A DNA stretch of 20,687 bases from positions 1 to 20,687 of IMG/VR virus record IMGVR_UViG_3300046170_000360. One strand, written 5' to 3'. The DNA comes from a virus. Shown here one piece after another: positions 12,956 to 20,671 of the stretch (its first letter is position 1; every line of letters starts with the position of its first letter). The notes under the pieces were generated by a model. That model worked only from the letters and a program-made list of their open reading frames with translations. It made no database searches and was not told the origin of the DNA. Made by a program: the position numbers and the translations under genes.

Positions 12956-13579
12956 TCATCGTTTAAACCAAGAAGGAAGACCTAAATGTGGACGCTTGTC
13001 AAACATATTATCTCTAGCGCCTGGCGTTTTACGATTATTATAATGAAGAAATACTTGTACGCATTCTTTACCTTTGAATTTTTCTCTCCAATGTTCTAGC
13101 TCACAGCCAGAATAAACCAGCATATCTCCTGGTTTTAAATCTACTTTAATACCTTTCATACCAACTTCTCCAGATGGCTCAAGATATATTGGCCAATCAT
13201 CGCCACCAAGATTCATAGTAGTAGATATCTCACAACTAAATCTATCTTTGTGTCTTTTTAAAACATCACCTTTTTTATATATTCTTGCATAAGTATATGC
13301 AGGATATAATTTAAGACCTGTTACCTTTTCCATTTCTGGTTGGCATTTTAACATTAATGTTTCCATAGCAATATTAGAATACTGACTATAAGTTTCTGGT
13401 ATCTGTTCATCTCTACCCTCATAATGACCTATAATATTTTCAAAAGGTGAAATATATTTTTGTGCTCTACAAGTATCATATACTTGTTTTTGCATACTAA
13501 AATAATTTGCAACAAAAGTTGCTAGGTCTTTTGATATTGCTTGACGTATAACTGTATACTTTTTCTTTTTAAAACTCAT
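12956..13579 (-). CDS. 2OG-Fe(II) oxygenase-like protein
   Basis: A 207-residue protein whose start overlaps the previous stop as ATGA. It has the double-stranded beta-helix pattern of prolyl-hydroxylase-like enzymes. H110 and D112 (LKRHKDRF) form the first part of the metal triad. Then come a strand with TTMNLGGDDWPIYLE and the typical KPGDMLVYSG at about 149-157, with H163 (ELEHWRE) as the distal His. A basic residue about 8-10 positions later, in KGKEC, could bind 2-oxoglutarate. Substrate unknown. It is the last member of the oxygenase-like block, followed by the hairpin at 12900-12949. The active-site pattern looks complete, so activity is plausible. Confidence 0.8.
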   Translation of the reverse strand: MSFKKKKYTVIRQAISKDLATFVANYFSMQKQVYDTCRAQKYISPFENIIGHYEGRDEQIPETYSQYSNIAMETLMLKCQPEMEKVTGLKLYPAYTYARIYKKGDVLKRHKDRFSCEISTTMNLGGDDWPIYLEPSGEVGMKGIKVDLKPGDMLVYSGCELEHWREKFKGKECVQVFLHYNNRKTPGARDNMFDKRPHLGLPSWFKR

Positions 13580-14100
13580 ATAAATGTATATATTAAAATT
13601 AATCTAAATCCTTTTTTTGGAACTATATGATAATGAGGTAGTTTACCCCACATAACTACTTTATTTGAAATAGGTTTTATTTTAACTATTTTATTATCTT
13701 TTTTTATACACGTGTATGATTTTAAATCATCACAATGTATGTATATAATTAATTGTTTGTGTTCAAAACTATGATCTAAATGAACATCTGATTTTTCTTT
13801 GCCATTATTAATTGTTAAATTTAAACAAATTCTAAATATTTTTTTAAATTTAAATTTAAGTTTTTTACTTAGTTTTTTTAAAAGATTTGTTGCAAAAGGA
13901 TATAAATTAGAATTAATAGGGTTTGGTAAATTATCTTCGGGTCTATGAAGAATAGTATGTGAAAAAAAACAAAAATTATTTGTTTTATTTATTATTTCTG
14001 TTTTATTTAAGTAAAATGGAAAATTACTATTATTAATAATATTTTTTTTAAAATAATTTTGTGTTTTTTTATCGATTGCATTTAAATATTCTTTAAACAT
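13576..14100 (-). CDS. AT-rich 2OG-Fe(II) oxygenase-like protein
   Basis: A 174-residue protein overlapping both neighbours (8 nt at its start, ATGA at its end). It is extremely Lys/Asn/Ile-rich. H107 and D109 (SDVHLDHSF) plus H156 or H158 (LPHYHIVP) and R166 match the 2OG-Fe(II) oxygenase pattern, and LIIYIHCDD fits the strand between. A hand count of 13621-14100 gives about 88 G+C in 480 bases (18%), against 33-38% in single sampled lines of the flanking genes. That makes it a compositional outlier, suggesting a different origin or relaxed constraint. Activity is plausible because the key residues are present. Substrate unknown. The family call is weaker than for its neighbours. Confidence 0.65.
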   Translation of the reverse strand: MFKEYLNAIDKKTQNYFKKNIINNSNFPFYLNKTEIINKTNNFCFFSHTILHRPEDNLPNPINSNLYPFATNLLKKLSKKLKFKFKKIFRICLNLTINNGKEKSDVHLDHSFEHKQLIIYIHCDDLKSYTCIKKDNKIVKIKPISNKVVMWGKLPHYHIVPKKGFRLILIYTFI

Positions 14101-14725
14101 CTTTAGCCATCTCTTTCGGCACAGCAGTTATATTCCAATGTATAAACCTAAAAGGCTCTTTACCAAAGTCTACTGCAAACTCGTGTTCCAAGAACCCTGG
14201 AAAGATAATTAAAGTTCCAGGTGTAGGTTTAAAATGTATAAGCTCACTACCACCCCATACACCTTTTTGATCTGGTTTCATTTTTAATTTTGTAGCACGT
14301 GCACCTGTTCTCGGTTCGTGAAATACAGGGTAAGATGTTTTATCACTACACTTTAAAAAATAAAAACCTGATACGTGTTGATTCCAATGTACGTGTGCTG
14401 AATGATGACCACCACCTTTTTTAGCAAACTCTTGTACCCACATCTCACTAAACATAGTTGTGTATTGTTGCATATCAAAACCTTGGTGATCTAAATATTC
14501 CCAAGACTTTTGACCAATGTAATTTCTAAAATCTAAAAAGTCATTGTCTGCTGTAAGTGGTGTTGAATGATACGATCTTCCAAAGTCACCATGTTCTTTT
14601 ATAAATTTCTTTTCTCTTGTTCTTGCATCTTTAATATATTTATTAGATGCTTTGTTTAATGATTTTACAAACTCTGGTTTTTGTTCTGACCAAATAGTTG
14701 TACTAAAATAGTTACTTATAAACAT
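14093..14725 (-). CDS. putative 2OG-Fe(II) oxygenase (TIGR02466/PF13759-like)
   Basis: A 210-residue protein starting in a TAATG overlap. The sequence HSAHVHWNQHVSGFYFLK at about 108-125, with H111 and H113 followed by SGFYFL, is the hallmark I associate with the phage and bacterial family TIGR02466 (PF13759). The distal part PTPGTLIIFPGFLEHEF at about 168-183 provides H181, and R193 (EPFRFIHWNI) is positioned to bind 2-oxoglutarate. Members are common in marine phages, with unproven substrates. Its place inside a block of related enzymes next to fibre genes suggests virion-protein or host-target modification, but no substrate can be read from the sequence. Confidence 0.85.
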   Translation of the reverse strand: MFISNYFSTTIWSEQKPEFVKSLNKASNKYIKDARTREKKFIKEHGDFGRSYHSTPLTADNDFLDFRNYIGQKSWEYLDHQGFDMQQYTTMFSEMWVQEFAKKGGGHHSAHVHWNQHVSGFYFLKCSDKTSYPVFHEPRTGARATKLKMKPDQKGVWGGSELIHFKPTPGTLIIFPGFLEHEFAVDFGKEPFRFIHWNITAVPKEMAKDV

Positions 14726-15363
14726 TATTTAAAAGGCCTTCCTAAATGCCAAACAACAAGACTATATCTTGTGCCTGATGTTACGGGTTTAACTCTATGC
14801 CAAACGAAAGAAGGAAATACAATGATAGAACCTTTTGGTAATATTTCTTTTGCTCTTCTCAAATGTCTAGCTTCATCTCTCATATGTGGCTCGTAGTTTC
14901 TAAAATCAAATTCTAATTCACCACCTGTGTATTCTGAACCATCTGTTAATTGACAAGTCATAGATAGTTTTCTAATTCTTCCGTGTTCTGGATCATTAAC
15001 ATCGTCTCGTTGATAAGCTTTATCCCAACTATCACAATGCCAATCATAGTATTGGTTGTGTTTATATTTTGTAAACTGACAAGACTCACTTCTTTCCCAA
15101 TCAAAGTTCCAACCAGCTTGTCTATTTGCTTCGTGAACATATGGATGTAATTCTTTATATATCCAAGTATCATTTAACCAAACTAAATCAGAATTTCTTT
15201 TTCTTTTTAAATCTTTAACTTCTTCTTTAGATAATTTTCTATCACCATAACCGCCAGTTCTAGCCATTGTTTCTTCTTGTTGATTAGCATAAGCTATTAC
15301 ATCATCACAAAACTTTGGTGTAAGTGCGGCAGGAAAATGCCAATAGTAATTAGATATATTCAT
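14725..15363 (-). CDS. prolyl-hydroxylase-type 2OG-Fe(II) oxygenase
   Basis: The best-defined member of the block, 212 residues, starting inside the 3' end of the upstream gene (14-nt overlap). H109 and D111 (YYDWHCDSWD) and H189 (VFPSFVWHRV) form the complete iron triad. R199 (SGTRYSLVVW) is well placed to hold 2-oxoglutarate. LSMTCQLTDGSEYTGGELEF at 133-152 and LPKGSIIVFPS at 175-185 are the standard strands of prolyl 4-hydroxylase-like (PKHD-like) enzymes. It should hydroxylate a protein side chain or small molecule using O2 and 2-oxoglutarate. An insert rich in Arg, Asp and His (158-172) before the last strands may shape specificity. Substrate unknown. Confidence 0.9.
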   Translation of the reverse strand: MNISNYYWHFPAALTPKFCDDVIAYANQQEETMARTGGYGDRKLSKEEVKDLKRKRNSDLVWLNDTWIYKELHPYVHEANRQAGWNFDWERSESCQFTKYKHNQYYDWHCDSWDKAYQRDDVNDPEHGRIRKLSMTCQLTDGSEYTGGELEFDFRNYEPHMRDEARHLRRAKEILPKGSIIVFPSFVWHRVKPVTSGTRYSLVVWHLGRPFK

Positions 15364-15853
15364 AAGTTATTGTTTGAACAAAATTCAAACTATCTTTCTG
15401 ATCATTTGATACAATATACATATTAGTAGACGGAAACATAACAAACATATTTTTTTTAAGTTCTATGTCCCAACTTCTTCCCTTACGTCTATTATCATCA
15501 AAATGTATTCTTACCCAACACTTATCAACTTTAACTCCGTAAAGCATTGTAAAGTCAGGTGAGTTTCGAAGATCTACTGGATCAACATTTAATAAAGGTT
15601 TAGATACTTGACCGGGTTTATAAATGTCACCCCAAGAATCCTTGTTGACTAAATGAATACCATAATCAAGACCAATAAAGTCTCTCATATAAGTATTTAA
15701 CATATCCCAAGTTCTTGAAAATGGAAATTGTTTATTAGTAAATGATGATTGTAAAATATCGTTAGTAAGTTTTTCTTGGTCTATCTCAAAACCTTTCGGC
15801 ATATCGATATCACCATAGAATAGACTTTGTTCTGTTAATACTTTCTTTTGCAT
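15350..15853 (-). CDS. degenerate oxygenase-fold protein (possible pseudoenzyme)
   Basis: A 167-residue protein at the head of the oxygenase block. The C-terminal half resembles the same fold: VRIHFDDNRRKGRSWDIEL at 114-132 with H117 and D119, then NMFVMFPSTNMYIVS at 135-149. Aligning FPSTNMY with FPSFVWH of the next gene puts Y146 where the distal iron His should be and L156 where the 2OG-binding Arg should be. If that alignment is right, the protein is probably not a canonical oxygenase and may be a partner or scaffold. A TTGACA-type promoter-like element precedes it, and GGTGGTGG takes the place of a normal ribosome site. The fold assignment is by eye. Confidence 0.6.
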   Translation of the reverse strand: MQKKVLTEQSLFYGDIDMPKGFEIDQEKLTNDILQSSFTNKQFPFSRTWDMLNTYMRDFIGLDYGIHLVNKDSWGDIYKPGQVSKPLLNVDPVDLRNSPDFTMLYGVKVDKCWVRIHFDDNRRKGRSWDIELKKNMFVMFPSTNMYIVSNDQKDSLNFVQTITYEYI

Positions 15854-15863
15854 ACCACCACCA

Positions 15864-15892
15864 TATATAAAATAATATTAATTATTTGTCAA
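15864..15892 (-). promoter_or_regulatory. sigma70-like promoter before the oxygenase block
   Basis: A perfect TTGACA at 15892-15887 starts directly after the TAG stop of the MAHFAKL-type gene. After a 17-bp spacer comes TATATA at 15869-15864, 10 nt before the ATG at 15853. A transcript would begin almost at the start codon. AT-rich DNA produces chance hits, but the exact -35 box and 17-bp spacing are favourable. Confidence 0.45.
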
Positions 15893-16411
15893 CTATTGAG
15901 CAACCCAAGCTGTTCCGTTCCAATCGTAAATAGATGTATCAGTGTGATCTGTTGCATCTTTATTACTTTTTTTACCTTCCCAACCTTTAGTATTATCAGC
16001 TTGATATGCAGTTTCATTCCAAGTAATAGTCCAATCCCATACAACAGGATCTGCGCCATCATCAGTCACTGATGGATAAGTAATTGGTGCATCCCAAGAT
16101 GCAGTTGAAGTATTTTTAGTCCAAGACGCATATGGTTTTTTAGGCCAGAAAATTTGATTATCTTCGTCCCATTCATAACCTATACCTGCGTAGTTACCTC
16201 TAAAAGGTGTACCACCATCTTTATGTTGATTACCAGATGTATTGTATGAAGTTTGAATCCACATTTGTGCAGGCCAATTATTATGTGTTTCTAAATATTG
16301 TTGACCTACTGCTTCGTCTTCAACACCATCAGCATTTAACATATCTTTGTTATCAAGTGTTAATACTTGAATAACTTTACTGTTAGTTCCTAGTTTTGCA
16401 AAATGTGCCAT
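15893..16411 (-). CDS. MAHFAKL-type marine phage protein of unknown function
   Basis: A 172-residue protein with a strong AAGGAG ribosome site. It begins MAHFAKLGTNSKVIQVLTLDN and contains WIQTSYNTSGNQHKDGG, FRGNYAGIGYEWDEDNQIFW and PYASWTKNTSTASWDAPITY, ending in Trp-rich repeats (IYDWNGTAWV). I recall this pattern (MAHFAKL, WVQTSYN, NYAGIGY, PSW, WDAP) from many cyanophage and other marine phage genomes, where it is uncharacterised and usually near tail genes. The Trp/Tyr-rich strands suggest a carbohydrate-binding or fibre-associated beta domain. That is inference. It separates the Gly-rich fibre genes from the oxygenase block. Confidence 0.8.
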   Translation of the reverse strand: MAHFAKLGTNSKVIQVLTLDNKDMLNADGVEDEAVGQQYLETHNNWPAQMWIQTSYNTSGNQHKDGGTPFRGNYAGIGYEWDEDNQIFWPKKPYASWTKNTSTASWDAPITYPSVTDDGADPVVWDWTITWNETAYQADNTKGWEGKKSNKDATDHTDTSIYDWNGTAWVAQ

Positions 16412-16421
16412 AATTATTCTC

Positions 16422-16450
16422 CTTATATATTATTTTTAATTATTATTCAA
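16422..16450 (-). promoter_or_regulatory. weak sigma70-like element with the shared geometry
   Basis: TTGAAT at 16450-16445 follows the TAG stop of the upstream fibre gene. After 17 bp comes TATAAG at 16427-16422, 10 nt before the ATG at 16411. The -10 overlaps the AAGGAG ribosome site of that gene, so a transcript starting here would lose it. This copy is therefore the least convincing of the three. Confidence 0.25.
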
Positions 16451-17932
16451 CTACTGAAATTTATATCTTATCATTACAATACCTGAACCACCGGCTCCTA
16501 TACTTCCGCCAGGTCCATAACCAGCTCCACCACCGCCTCCCATATTAGCTGCGGCAGTACCTTCTGCAGGTCCACCACCACCAGCTCCACCACCACTAGG
16601 ATGACTTATTGGTCTTCCACCACCACCGCCAGCAAAATATTGTCCTGCAGCTCTTGGTTCTGAAGGGGGAGAAGATGCAGGTTCACCAAAAGAAGGGGAT
16701 GCTGGTCCTATAAAAGTTGTTGGAACAAAAGATCCATCGCCACCCGTACTTATATCTTCTGCTCCTGCCGTGCTTGCTCCACCGCCACCTGCTCCATATG
16801 AACCTGCACCAGGTCCACTTATCGTACCACCAGGTTTTCCTTGAGGTGGACTTACTGGAGGTACATTACCTGCTCCTCCAGAAATTGCTCCAGGTCCACT
16901 AGTATCTCGAGACCCAGCTCCACCACCAGAACCACCATCAGCACCAGGTCTTTGCGGAGTGGGGCTATGATTTCCAGCAGCTCCACCACCTGCAGATGTT
17001 ATTGTTGAAAAACTTGAATTTGAACCGCAATTTCTAGAACTAGATCCACCAGCTCCGCCGCCACCAACGACTACTGGATATCCTTGTGCTGATACAGGTA
17101 AAGCTGCTGGACCATTTAAAGGTGAAGCTGGACTTAAAGCTGTAAATGATCTGAAACCACCTGCTCCTCCTCCACCACCTTGATCACATCCACCAGATCC
17201 ACCACCAGCTACCACTAAATATTCAACTGTATTTGATCCTGCTGAATTACCTACTGAACAAACAGTAAAAGTTCCTGGTCCTGTAAAAATATGGGTTTTA
17301 AAATCACCACAAGTAGATATAGTATTACCTCCTGTTGCTGAAATATATTGTGCTCCATACATTGTTGTAGTTTGATCTTCTGTTGGAATCCAACCTTTAG
17401 TTGCGTCTACGTATACAAGCATTAGAGATTGACCATTTGTTGAAGACGTTCCATCAGCTGCAGATCCTTGAATATTAGAACTATTTCTACCTATTGTTAA
17501 ATTGTTTGTTGCAAAAGTTCTTGCATAATCATTGAAACCTACGATATCTCCTGCACTTGGTGAGGCAGGTAAAGTAGCAGTTACTGCTCCTGATGTAGTA
17601 TTAACAAAATAACCTTCACCACTGGCTGCTGTAAAATTTCCTGTTTTAATACTACCTGTTTGCCAATCAACAGTTCCTGTTCTACCGAATCCTGTCTGAC
17701 TTGCTCCGCTTGCAAGTGATACTGTATCACCAGAAGCACCCAAAGTTATTGTAGTTCCTGATTGTGAAATTATACTTCCGCCATCAGTTGCCTTTAATGC
17801 ATTTGATTTTAAATCTCCATTAACTGTTACTGGAACTCCTGCTGTTACTGAAACTGAATCTCCAGAATCTCCAACAGTTACTGTACCACAATTTGTTCTT
17901 GGACTAATTTTATTTACTTTTACTTCACTCAT
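16451..17932 (-). CDS. Gly-rich tail fibre/adhesin, paralogue 3
   Basis: A 493-residue protein with three parts. Residues 1-85 are a fibre start with repeated TxxLGASGDTV-type units, the second followed by GFGRTGTVDWQTGSIKT. Residues about 95-185 are the beta module with LPASPSAGDIV, NNLTIGRNSSNI and LVYVDATKGW. After a conserved link (HIFTGPGTFTV, 214-224), residues from about 240 are Gly-rich with many Gly runs, containing PPVSPPQG at 358-365. The end is GGSGIVMIRYKFQ. The Gly-rich part recalls polyglycine-II-type adhesins such as T-even gp38, where loops bind receptors. That comparison is inference. It is 37-50 residues longer than the other two paralogues, mainly through an extra N-terminal unit. 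Confidence 0.8.
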   Translation of the reverse strand: MSEVKVNKISPRTNCGTVTVGDSGDSVSVTAGVPVTVNGDLKSNALKATDGGSIISQSGTTITLGASGDTVSLASGASQTGFGRTGTVDWQTGSIKTGNFTAASGEGYFVNTTSGAVTATLPASPSAGDIVGFNDYARTFATNNLTIGRNSSNIQGSAADGTSSTNGQSLMLVYVDATKGWIPTEDQTTTMYGAQYISATGGNTISTCGDFKTHIFTGPGTFTVCSVGNSAGSNTVEYLVVAGGGSGGCDQGGGGGAGGFRSFTALSPASPLNGPAALPVSAQGYPVVVGGGGAGGSSSRNCGSNSSFSTITSAGGGAAGNHSPTPQRPGADGGSGGGAGSRDTSGPGAISGGAGNVPPVSPPQGKPGGTISGPGAGSYGAGGGGASTAGAEDISTGGDGSFVPTTFIGPASPSFGEPASSPPSEPRAAGQYFAGGGGGRPISHPSGGGAGGGGPAEGTAAANMGGGGGAGYGPGGSIGAGGSGIVMIRYKFQ

Positions 17933-17939
17933 AATTTAC

Positions 17940-19283
17940 CTATTGAAATTTGTACCTTATTATTATCACACCTGATCCACCATTTCCACCACCTGCATTA
18001 CCAGATCCTCCACCTGCTCCTCCACCACCGGCGCCTTTGTTAGCATCACCATTTTGTCCCGTTGAACAAGACCCCCCTGGACTTCCAGCTCCTCCACCAC
18101 CGTTTCCACCGCTACCACCTGGACCTGTGGTTCCACCACCACCGCCACCAGCATAAGGCGTTGAACTTGCTGTAATTGAACTAGTTGTTCCAGCACCTCC
18201 ATTTCCTCCTGGACCATTACTACCTGCTACAGTTGCTCCACCACCGCCACCACCACCTGATGGATGAGAAGTTCCCCCAGAATTTCCTTGAGGAGGACTT
18301 ACGGGAGGAGTATTTCCTCCACCATTATTAGAACCTGCATTTCCACTAGCTCCAGCTCCACCTCCAGATCCACCATCATCACCATCTTGTCCTTCGTTAG
18401 CTCCACCGCCACCGCCACCAGTAGAAGTTACTGTTGAAAAAACTGAATTATTACCAACTTCACCTGCTCCTCCAGTTCCACCACCACCTACTGTAATTGG
18501 ATATGCTTGAGCGGTAACTGTTACTGATGTTCCACCAGGATTACCATTTTTAGGTGAAGCAGTATAAGAATCTACTGGGCTTTTAAATTCTCTATAACCA
18601 CCAGCACCACCTCCCCCACCACCATTTCTTGCAGGACCATTTTGACTATTTCCACCAGCTCCTCCTCCAGCAACTACTGTATAAGAAACTACATTCTCTG
18701 CTGCAGTTGATGAAACTTTACAAACTGTAAATGTTCCTGGACCTGTAAATGTATGAATTTTAAAATTTCCTGAAGTTGTTATTGTTCCACCTGATGCAAC
18801 TAAATTAGGATTACCTATAACATTAGATGTTGAATCTTGAACGTTTTTCCATCCTTCAGTATCATCAACATAAACAAAAGTTACAGATTGACCTTCTGTA
18901 GTTAAAGTTATGTCTGCATTTACTCCACCAATTTTTTGTGAACCATTTGGTGAAATTGTTAAACCATTTGTTTGAAATGTATTTGTGTAGTCAACAACAG
19001 AAACAATATTACCTGCTGTTCCTGCTGGTAAGTTCATTGTAAATGCACCGCCTGAAGTGTTTGCAAAATAACCTTCACCATTTGCAGCTGTGAATGTGCT
19101 TGTTTTAATTGACCCTGTTTGCCAGTCTACTGTTCCTGTACGACCAAAACCGGATTGCGATGCACCTGATGCAAGAGTAACGGTATCGCCACTTGCACCA
19201 ATAGTAATTGTATTACTATTTTCATTGATAATGTTATTACCGTCTTGATCCTGAATATTGTCTACTTTAATTGTACTTGTCAT
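17940..19283 (-). CDS. Gly-rich tail fibre/adhesin, paralogue 2
   Basis: A 447-residue paralogue with the same order of parts: TITIGASGDTVTLASGA at 25-41, GFGRTGTVDWQTGSIKT at 45-61, the beta module ending FVYVDDTEGW at about 136-145, and HTFTGPGTFTV at 177-187. From about 204 onward it is Gly-rich, with NTPPVSPPQG at 324-333 and a GGSGVIIIRYKFQ end. It has the most polyglycine of the three. The start has no clear ribosome site and lies 2 nt after the upstream stop, so translation is probably coupled. Because all three ends are identical (IRYKFQ), the end probably has a conserved structural job, while the Gly-rich loops vary, as expected for receptor-binding surfaces. Confidence 0.8.
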   Translation of the reverse strand: MTSTIKVDNIQDQDGNNIINENSNTITIGASGDTVTLASGASQSGFGRTGTVDWQTGSIKTSTFTAANGEGYFANTSGGAFTMNLPAGTAGNIVSVVDYTNTFQTNGLTISPNGSQKIGGVNADITLTTEGQSVTFVYVDDTEGWKNVQDSTSNVIGNPNLVASGGTITTSGNFKIHTFTGPGTFTVCKVSSTAAENVVSYTVVAGGGAGGNSQNGPARNGGGGGGAGGYREFKSPVDSYTASPKNGNPGGTSVTVTAQAYPITVGGGGTGGAGEVGNNSVFSTVTSTGGGGGGANEGQDGDDGGSGGGAGASGNAGSNNGGGNTPPVSPPQGNSGGTSHPSGGGGGGGATVAGSNGPGGNGGAGTTSSITASSTPYAGGGGGGTTGPGGSGGNGGGGAGSPGGSCSTGQNGDANKGAGGGGAGGGSGNAGGGNGGSGVIIIRYKFQ

Positions 19284-19285
19284 AA

Positions 19286-20671
19286 TTATTGAAATTTATA
19301 CCTTATTATTACTATACCAGAGCCACCATTTCCAGCTTTAGCTGCTGGTGAAGAAGTTCCTGTGTTTCCACCACCTCCACCACCTCTGTTAGTAGTTCCA
19401 TCTCCAGCGTTTCTATCTATAGGTGGACTTGCTGCTGGCGCAGAAGTTGCTCCAACTCCACCTGTTCCACAAGGAGAAGCTGCTCCGCCTGCTGCAGAAG
19501 TTGGTCCATTTTGCGCTCCACCTCCAGCACCACCTGCATATGAAACTGCACTTCCTGTAATTGCTGTTGGTACACCTACAGCTCCATTACCTGCGGAGTT
19601 GTTATTACCAACAGGTGTTTGTGTTGCTGCAGCACCTGCACCACCACCTCCACCACCTTTTCCATTTAAACCTGGTTGACCACTACTTCGACCACCATCT
19701 TGTCCTTGAGGTGGACTAACAGGAGGTGTATTTCCCGATCCTCCCGTTCTACAAGCAGTTGCACCACCACCACCACCTCCAGATCCACCTGGATCTCCAT
19801 TTCCAGAACTTGGTGGTCCACCGCCGCCACCACCACCAGCTGATGTTATACTTGAAAAAACTGAATTAACTCCATTTGCTCCAGGAGTACAAGAACCGGT
19901 TACACCGGTTCCACCTCCACCCACTGTAATTGGAAAGCCTGTTGCTGTAATTGATATATCTGCTGCTCCTTCTAATGGACTAGCTGTATAAGTATCTACA
20001 GGTGATTTATTTTCTCTAAATCCTCCTGCTCCACCGCCGCCACCACCATTTCCTCCAGAACCTCCTGCTCCACCACCAGCTATAACTGCATAACTTACTG
20101 TATTTTCTGCAGCCACAGTTGATATTTGAGAAACACAAAAAGTTCCTGGGCCAGTGAATGTATGAATTTTAAAATCTCCAGAAGTTGTTATTGTACCACC
20201 AGTTGCAACTATGAATTGGCTTCCTGTAACTGAATTAGATGTTTCTTGAACATTAATCCAACCTTCTGTTGAATCAACATATACGAAAGTTGCTGTTTGA
20301 CCTTCAGTAGATAATGTTGCATCTGCTGCAACACCACCAATTTTTTCCGATCCATTTGGACTAACTGTTAAATTATTTGTTTGAAAAGTTCTTGTGTAAT
20401 CTGAAACTGCAACAACTGCACCAGCACTACCTGCTGGAAGATTAACAGTAAATGCTCCTCCACTTGTATTACAAAAATACCCCTCTCCTGCTGCCGCAGT
20501 AAACGTAGCTGTTTTAATACTTCCTGTTTGCCAAGACACAGCTTGAACTCCAGATACTTTAGATGCAGATAGTGTTGCACCTGACGGAATTGTTACTGTA
20601 TCACCAGAAGCACCTAGTGTTAATGTAGTTCCGCATTGTGGTTCAACTGTATTTACTTCTATTTTACTCAT
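19286..20671 (-). CDS. Gly-rich tail fibre/adhesin, paralogue 1
   Basis: A 461-residue paralogue. TTLTLGASGDTVTIPSGATL lies near residues 15-34, WQTGSIKTATFTAA at 47-60, the beta module with NLPAGSAGAVV and FVYVDSTEGW at about 77-138, and HTFTGPGTFCV at 170-180. A Gly-rich half follows, with NTPPVSPPQG at 314-323 and GGSGIVIIRYKFQ at the end. It differs from its siblings in several Cys residues (C67, C179, C261, C307, C401) that could be solvent-exposed. The ATG is in a TAATG arrangement, so an upstream gene beyond the right edge may end here; only 16 bases of it are visible, too few to identify. No ribosome site is visible. Confidence 0.8.
   Translation of the reverse strand: MSKIEVNTVEPQCGTTLTLGASGDTVTIPSGATLSASKVSGVQAVSWQTGSIKTATFTAAAGEGYFCNTSGGAFTVNLPAGSAGAVVAVSDYTRTFQTNNLTVSPNGSEKIGGVAADATLSTEGQTATFVYVDSTEGWINVQETSNSVTGSQFIVATGGTITTSGDFKIHTFTGPGTFCVSQISTVAAENTVSYAVIAGGGAGGSGGNGGGGGGAGGFRENKSPVDTYTASPLEGAADISITATGFPITVGGGGTGVTGSCTPGANGVNSVFSSITSAGGGGGGGPPSSGNGDPGGSGGGGGGATACRTGGSGNTPPVSPPQGQDGGRSSGQPGLNGKGGGGGGAGAAATQTPVGNNNSAGNGAVGVPTAITGSAVSYAGGAGGGAQNGPTSAAGGAASPCGTGGVGATSAPAASPPIDRNAGDGTTNRGGGGGGNTGTSSPAAKAGNGGSGIVIIRYKFQ

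Follow-up and report, generated by a model that had tools for sequence, protein, structure and literature searches.

The window analysed here is the whole of an IMG/VR virus record (IMGVR_UViG_3300046170_000360; 20,687 bases), in which three consecutive genes coding for glycine-rich adhesins are followed downstream, on the same strand, by a cassette of four oxygenase-type genes. A preliminary description of this DNA had proposed that one of these enzymes hydroxylates the prolines of a PPVSPPQG box that is present in all three adhesins. The genes under study all lie on the minus strand, in the order three Gly_rich_2 adhesins, p172, p167, oxy212, oxy210, p174 and oxy207. The window comes from a marine phage, kin of phages that infect the ocean bacterium Pelagibacter: its nearest named relatives are Pelagibacter phage HTVC023P and the complete genome 023Pt_psg01, which display nearly the same gene order and carry oxy212 orthologues that are 84–87% identical to that of the window, and a further orthologue (62% identical) is found in HTVC033P.

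The arrangement of Gly_rich_2 adhesin, p172 and oxygenases is syntenic in HTVC023P, 023Pt_psg01 and HTVC033P, and Gly_rich_2, p172 and the cassette lie next to one another in pelagipodoviruses, cyanomyoviruses and pelagimyoviruses. In S-SM1, S-RSM4, HTVC008M and Mosig, whose genomes (141–194 kb) each contain a single Gly_rich_2 gene, the distance from this gene to the best oxy212 orthologue is about 1.2 kb, 1.8 kb, 3.4 kb and 0.5 kb, respectively; p172 was not detected in the stretch of Mosig that was read. The conserved unit is the adhesin together with p172 and the oxygenase cassette, and the pairing of adhesin and hydroxylase is real and old.

Three Gly_rich_2 adhesins and their PPVSPPQG box

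Adhesins 1 (461 amino acids; 19286..20671), 2 (447 amino acids; 17940..19283) and 3 (493 amino acids; 16451..17932) belong to the Gly_rich_2 family (PF21722; E-values 2.4e-16, 3.6e-12 and 8.1e-14, respectively), with scores of 52.6, 47.2 and 60.9 bits against a curated cut-off of 24.3. The AlphaFold2 (AF2) model of adhesin 1 has a predicted local distance difference test (pLDDT) value of 88, rising to approximately 95 in the blocks that run through the box, which are confidently ordered. When compared to the PDB, the model gave a match to the N-terminal part of TSP4, a phage tailspike, and a weaker one to the Pam3 fibre 7ypx (Foldseek E-value 7.7e-5 over 317 columns; modest template modelling (TM) scores of 0.30/0.52, the latter by target). 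In gp38 and Pam3 gp24, receptor binding is attributed to hypervariable loops carried by a glycine lattice (PMC12892980, PMC9608196), and the proposed receptor binder of the Pam3 fibre is its distal, glycine-rich lattice, the tip of which is variable (PMC9608196). The box may form one strand of such a lattice.

As the preliminary description had reported, an identical PPVSPPQG is present in all three proteins, once in each: at residues 316–323 of adhesin 1 (19704..19726), where it ends the longer string GNTPPVSPPQG (approximately residues 313–323), at residues 326–333 of adhesin 2 (18286..18308) and at residues 358–365 of adhesin 3 (16839..16861). Its DNA copies, CCTCCAGTAAGTCCACCTCAAGG, CCTCCCGTAAGTCCTCCTCAAGG and CCTCCTGTTAGTCCACCTCAAGG, differ in three codons, synonymously only, within flanks that are otherwise divergent, indicating that the box is neither a product of chance nor a fresh copy. 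The reversed box pattern gave zero matches in the window's own record.

Pattern scans of IMG/VR, which required exact codon patterns and whose frequencies describe samples of fragments and not the whole collection, returned at least 120 stretches in which the core is nearly always G-N-T-P-P-V-S-P-P-Q-G-N-x-G-G within hypervariable sequence; the generic box pattern gave 45 matches when frame-shifted, versus at least 120 in its correct form. These scans revealed that PPVSPPQG is the proline form of a more general box, GN-T-P-x-x-S/T-P-x-QG, of phage glycine-rich adhesins, a wider form that had not been recognised in the preliminary description. Two forms dominate, namely PVSP (that of the window) and STSS (PSTSPSQG; the serine form). 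Among enzyme-bearing loci the intermediates PVSA and PVSS are frequent, the fourth proline is absent in 38% and the second in 16% of the boxes, and PPVSPP makes up 38 of the 87 boxes in loci chosen by their oxygenase. The box is probably kept for structural reasons. HTVC033P encodes two double-domain Gly_rich_2 proteins (580 and 598 amino acids; 26662–30734 of locus L126), only one of which has the exact box, while both carry the variant TPPTDPPQG. In 84,980 prokaryote genomes the proline-box pattern was found in just three stretches, from two contigs that belong to metagenome bins; being nearly absent from cellular genomes, it therefore cannot serve there as an enzyme-free control. A tblastn search of phage records with a 28-amino-acid box peptide, a short and low-complexity query, gave no match.

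The oxygenase cassette and its neighbours

The first gene of the cassette, oxy212 (14725..15363; 212 amino acids; PF13640, E-value 7.7e-16), had been described as a prolyl-hydroxylase-type enzyme with an intact H109/D111/H189/R199 pattern, and all four residues were invariant in our alignment of 59 sequences, which reaches down to 27% identity. Oxy212 thus has both the HxD...H iron-binding triad and the 2-oxoglutarate (2OG)-binding arginine of a 2OG-Fe(II) oxygenase. The HxD...H...R/K residues are an established trait of the prolyl 4-hydroxylase (P4H) family, which oxy212 has in common with it. In the PDB, the best fold matches of its AF2 model (pLDDT 94) were prolyl hydroxylases (best E-value 5.9e-11), specifically the PBCV-1 viral collagen prolyl hydroxylase vCPH (5c5t), the Pseudomonas putida P4H in complex with EF-Tu (4iw3), an algal P4H with a Ser-Pro peptide (3gze) and PHD2. 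When solved proteins were ranked by sequence profile, the PKHD-type proteins PiuC and Sbal_3634 stood above the P4Hs, so that the closest relatives by this measure are not prolyl hydroxylases; because the profile is nearer to PKHD-type PiuC than to the P4Hs, oxy212 may or may not be specific for proline. For this predicted enzyme, a prolyl-hydroxylase fold and oxygenase chemistry are likely.

The preliminary description had overlooked that the next three genes also resemble 2OG-type oxygenases. Oxy210 (14093..14725) is a putative 2OG-Fe(II) oxygenase of the PF13759 type (E-value 3.9e-12) with profile similarity to oxy212 and with H111, H113 and H181 invariant in its alignment; in the PF13759-type family an invariant H-x-H and a distal H replace the usual H-x-D. 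In p174 (13576..14100) the residues H107, D109, H156 and R166 (HxD...H...R) are invariant in 26 diverse sequences, and its weak PDB match is to a DNA demethylase (E-value 0.03). Oxy207 (12956..13579) has invariant H110, D112 and H163 (HxD...H). Since none of oxy207, p174 and p167 matched oxy212 confidently in profile–profile comparisons, the assignments of p174 and oxy207, which look like further 2OG-type oxygenases (probable in the case of oxy207), rest on these invariant residues. Both genes carry other labels in PHROG. For p174, labelled 'DNA endonuclease V' (phrog_274), we rejected a T4-type endonuclease V, as there was no Pfam match and no endonuclease V in the PDB profile matches up to an E-value of 5; for oxy207, labelled 'ferrochelatase' (phrog_2954), we rejected a ferrochelatase, as there was no Pfam match and the three very weak PDB matches were all 2OG dioxygenases (E-values 1.4–1.7). 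Both labels are probably wrong in these genomes.

Two further genes separate the adhesins from oxy212. The product of p172 (15893..16411; phrog_7759, E-value 2.5e-33) adjoins Gly_rich_2 adhesins in podophages and myophages, also where the oxygenase is missing. The chaperone of the Pam3 fibre is gp25 (PMC9608196), and by analogy p172 could possibly be a dedicated adhesin chaperone. The other gene, p167 (15350..15853), matched nothing in Pfam or PHROG and lacked invariant columns across 28 sequences; an hhalign comparison to the 212-amino-acid family (probability 17%, E-value 0.0014) showed some likeness to the C-terminal portion of the oxygenase, a weak hint that p167 may have a degenerate oxygenase-like fold.

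Co-occurrence of box and enzyme

The preliminary description had suggested checking whether phages with the motif also carry the oxygenase. Where at least 5 kb of sequence followed the box, oxy212 was present in 46 of the 47 loci that have both variable prolines, in 12 of 12 with one and in 7 of 37 with none. The exact motif thus nearly always occurs with the enzyme in these raw counts, and the many exact-motif phages lacking an oxygenase that would have spoken against the proposal were not found. Loci picked by the box alone gave the same picture (24 of 25 proline-box loci versus 5 of 32 serine-form loci; raw Fisher p = 4e-10), as did longer records (12 of 13 with the proline box, the exception being a 16 kb fragment, L042, versus 4 of 25 with the serine box, counting strong matches), and all six proline-box records of at least 20 kb have the enzyme.

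Phylogeny changed the reading of these counts. Using the adjacent gene p172 (198 rows), we took path-disjoint pairs on the best tree. In pairs differing in the proline box the enzyme was unchanged in eight of nine (8 ties, 1 same), and in pairs differing in the enzyme the box was unchanged in seven of eight (7 ties, 1 same); likewise, the enzyme was unchanged in 10 of 11 pairs differing in the second proline and in 31 of 32 differing in the fourth. Oxy212 and PPVSPPQG, tested as an enzyme–substrate pair, showed no joint gain and loss on this tree, whose supported branches carry only four independent contrasts and therefore have limited power against a weaker relation. Because box changes are not matched by enzyme changes, the co-occurrence is mostly one inherited split, and after the tree-based pairs we rejected it as proof of the substrate. 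This case shows that an obvious pairing of motif and enzyme is insufficient as evidence alone.

Box and enzyme were also found apart. The oxy212 orthologues of S-SM1, S-RSM4, HTVC008M and Mosig (40–47% identity) adjoin the sole Gly_rich_2 gene, and the box pattern is absent from these four whole genomes. Conversely, 12 of 25 large serine-box records, some of which may be fragments, had neither PF13640 nor PF13759 above the cut-off, these being the two oxygenase families searched to the exclusion of others. Given such enzyme-only genomes and enzyme-free serine-box records, the box needs no enzyme and the enzyme needs no box. In approximately one third of the serine-box loci (L381, L360, L312 and similar), PF13759-type oxygenases lie near the adhesin and p172, indicating that the oxygenase–adhesin neighbourhood is wider than the pelagiphage lineage.

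Candidate targets of the cassette and comparison with known systems

We tentatively favour the reading that the Gly_rich_2 adhesin module is modified by the oxygenase cassette, at sites that are left open. The three glycine-rich proteins would serve as adhesins that bind the receptor, and a polyglycine-type lattice bearing hypervariable loops, as in phage S16 gp38 or Pam3 gp24, is the probable packing of their C-terminal domain. The box GN-T-P-x-x-S/T-P-x-QG would be a conserved strand of this lattice with a structural role; small residues fill its two variable positions, which are prolines in phages of the pelagiphage-like lineage and, in most other cases, serines. The roughly four putative 2OG-type oxygenases of the co-inherited downstream cassette would act on a peptide and hydroxylate adhesin side chains before assembly, and the residues need not be box prolines. 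The adhesin (or p172) is the most likely target of the cassette because of the constant place of the latter beside Gly_rich_2 and p172 in podoviruses and T4-like myoviruses. A broader version posits a portable module, common to marine podoviruses and T4-like myoviruses, whose battery of 2OG oxygenases post-translationally hydroxylates the phage's own glycine-rich receptor-binding adhesin; it strikes us as possible but doubtful. Several points weigh against modification of the adhesin. We infer it from synteny and protein families, which is indirect evidence, and the genes could have stayed together by hitch-hiking within a late tail module. An oxygenase is missing beside many Gly_rich_2 adhesins; in Melnitz-3 a distant oxy212 relative lies approximately 15 kb from the nearest Gly_rich_2 gene, unlinked to it, and in S-H25 another lies beside a helicase. 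The TM-scores of the Pam3 fibre match are modest, and no analysis of the amino acids in these virions is known to us. In the case of PBCV-1, whose P4H has been characterised, an analysis cited in PMC7019647 (its reference 162) found no hydroxyproline in the particles.

The proposal of the preliminary description, that the 212-amino-acid enzyme hydroxylates the PPVSPPQG prolines in the three adhesins and so stabilises their fold or alters receptor binding, now appears improbable. What stood was the likeness of the oxy212 fold to prolyl hydroxylases acting on viral, EF-Tu, Ser-Pro and HIF peptides, as well as the raw co-occurrence, with the exact motif accompanied by the enzyme and the serine form mostly without it; but the association reduces mostly to one inherited split, loci that keep the enzyme have often lost box proline 2 or 4, orthologues sit beside box-less adhesins, and the nearest sequence profile is that of PKHD-type PiuC and not of a P4H. 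Close behind adhesin modification, although unlikely in our estimate, comes action of the oxygenases on host targets (for example EF-Tu, ribosomal or envelope proteins) or in 2-oxoglutarate/iron metabolism. One of the best fold matches of oxy212 is the P. putida prolyl hydroxylase in its complex with EF-Tu, several distant paralogues are not near adhesins, and passages of PMC9602691 and PMC9599517 show authors of marine phage genomes assuming host metabolic roles. Position in the tail module would then be due merely to late expression or modular exchange, an account that is hard to square with the close oxy212 orthologue, which in phages of very different types is still found next to the only Gly_rich_2 gene. 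Modification of a nucleic acid or small molecule, e.g., phage DNA or a siderophore-like compound, is less probable than any of these: p174 and oxy207 have profile matches among DNA demethylase and TET-like dioxygenases, which point that way, as does the resemblance of oxy212 to PiuC, whose name designates it an iron uptake factor of pseudomonads, yet those matches are weak (E-values 0.03 to 1.7) and the genes sit in the tail module, not in a replication module.

When compared to known enzymes, oxy212 shares its fold with vCPH of PBCV-1 (5c5t; E-value 5.9e-11, TM 0.62/0.72), while identity to the vCPH, P. putida, algal and PHD2 prolyl 4-hydroxylases is only about 14–22%; unlike in the PBCV-1 vCPH system, no collagen-like repeats were noticed in the window. 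PKHD-type PiuC and Sbal_3634 are its best sequence-profile matches among solved proteins (E-values 1.7e-14 to 1e-13), but they are bacterial and lie outside phage tail modules, and the match spans just the second half of the profile. A literature search for PiuC, and for prolyl hydroxylase together with cyanophage tail fibre, found no paper. As in Pam3 gp24 (7ypx) and S16/PP01 gp38, glycine-rich motifs of the window's adhesins alternate with hypervariable segments and the genes occupy a tail position, although S16/PP01 gp38 was absent among the PDB matches listed for the adhesin model. Unlike gp24 and gp38, the adhesins have an N-terminal part resembling TSP4/gp10-type modules, and the box and the triplicated adhesin genes are features of this lineage.

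Close parallels are the cassettes of HTVC023P-type pelagiphages and T4-like cyanophages, which contain the same genes in nearly the same order. In passages of PMC9599517, HTVC023P-type cassettes are described as auxiliary metabolic genes, are not tied to glycine-rich adhesins, and have one or two members treated as ferrochelatases; given the doubtful labels, the partner-gene account of ferrochelatases and oxygenases in those passages merits re-reading. Marine viral P4H genes and a possible link to tail fibres have already received general mention (PMC9301287). As the constant partner of the cassette, the pair of Gly_rich_2 adhesin and p172 provides a concrete and testable substrate hypothesis in the cultured phages HTVC023P and HTVC033P.

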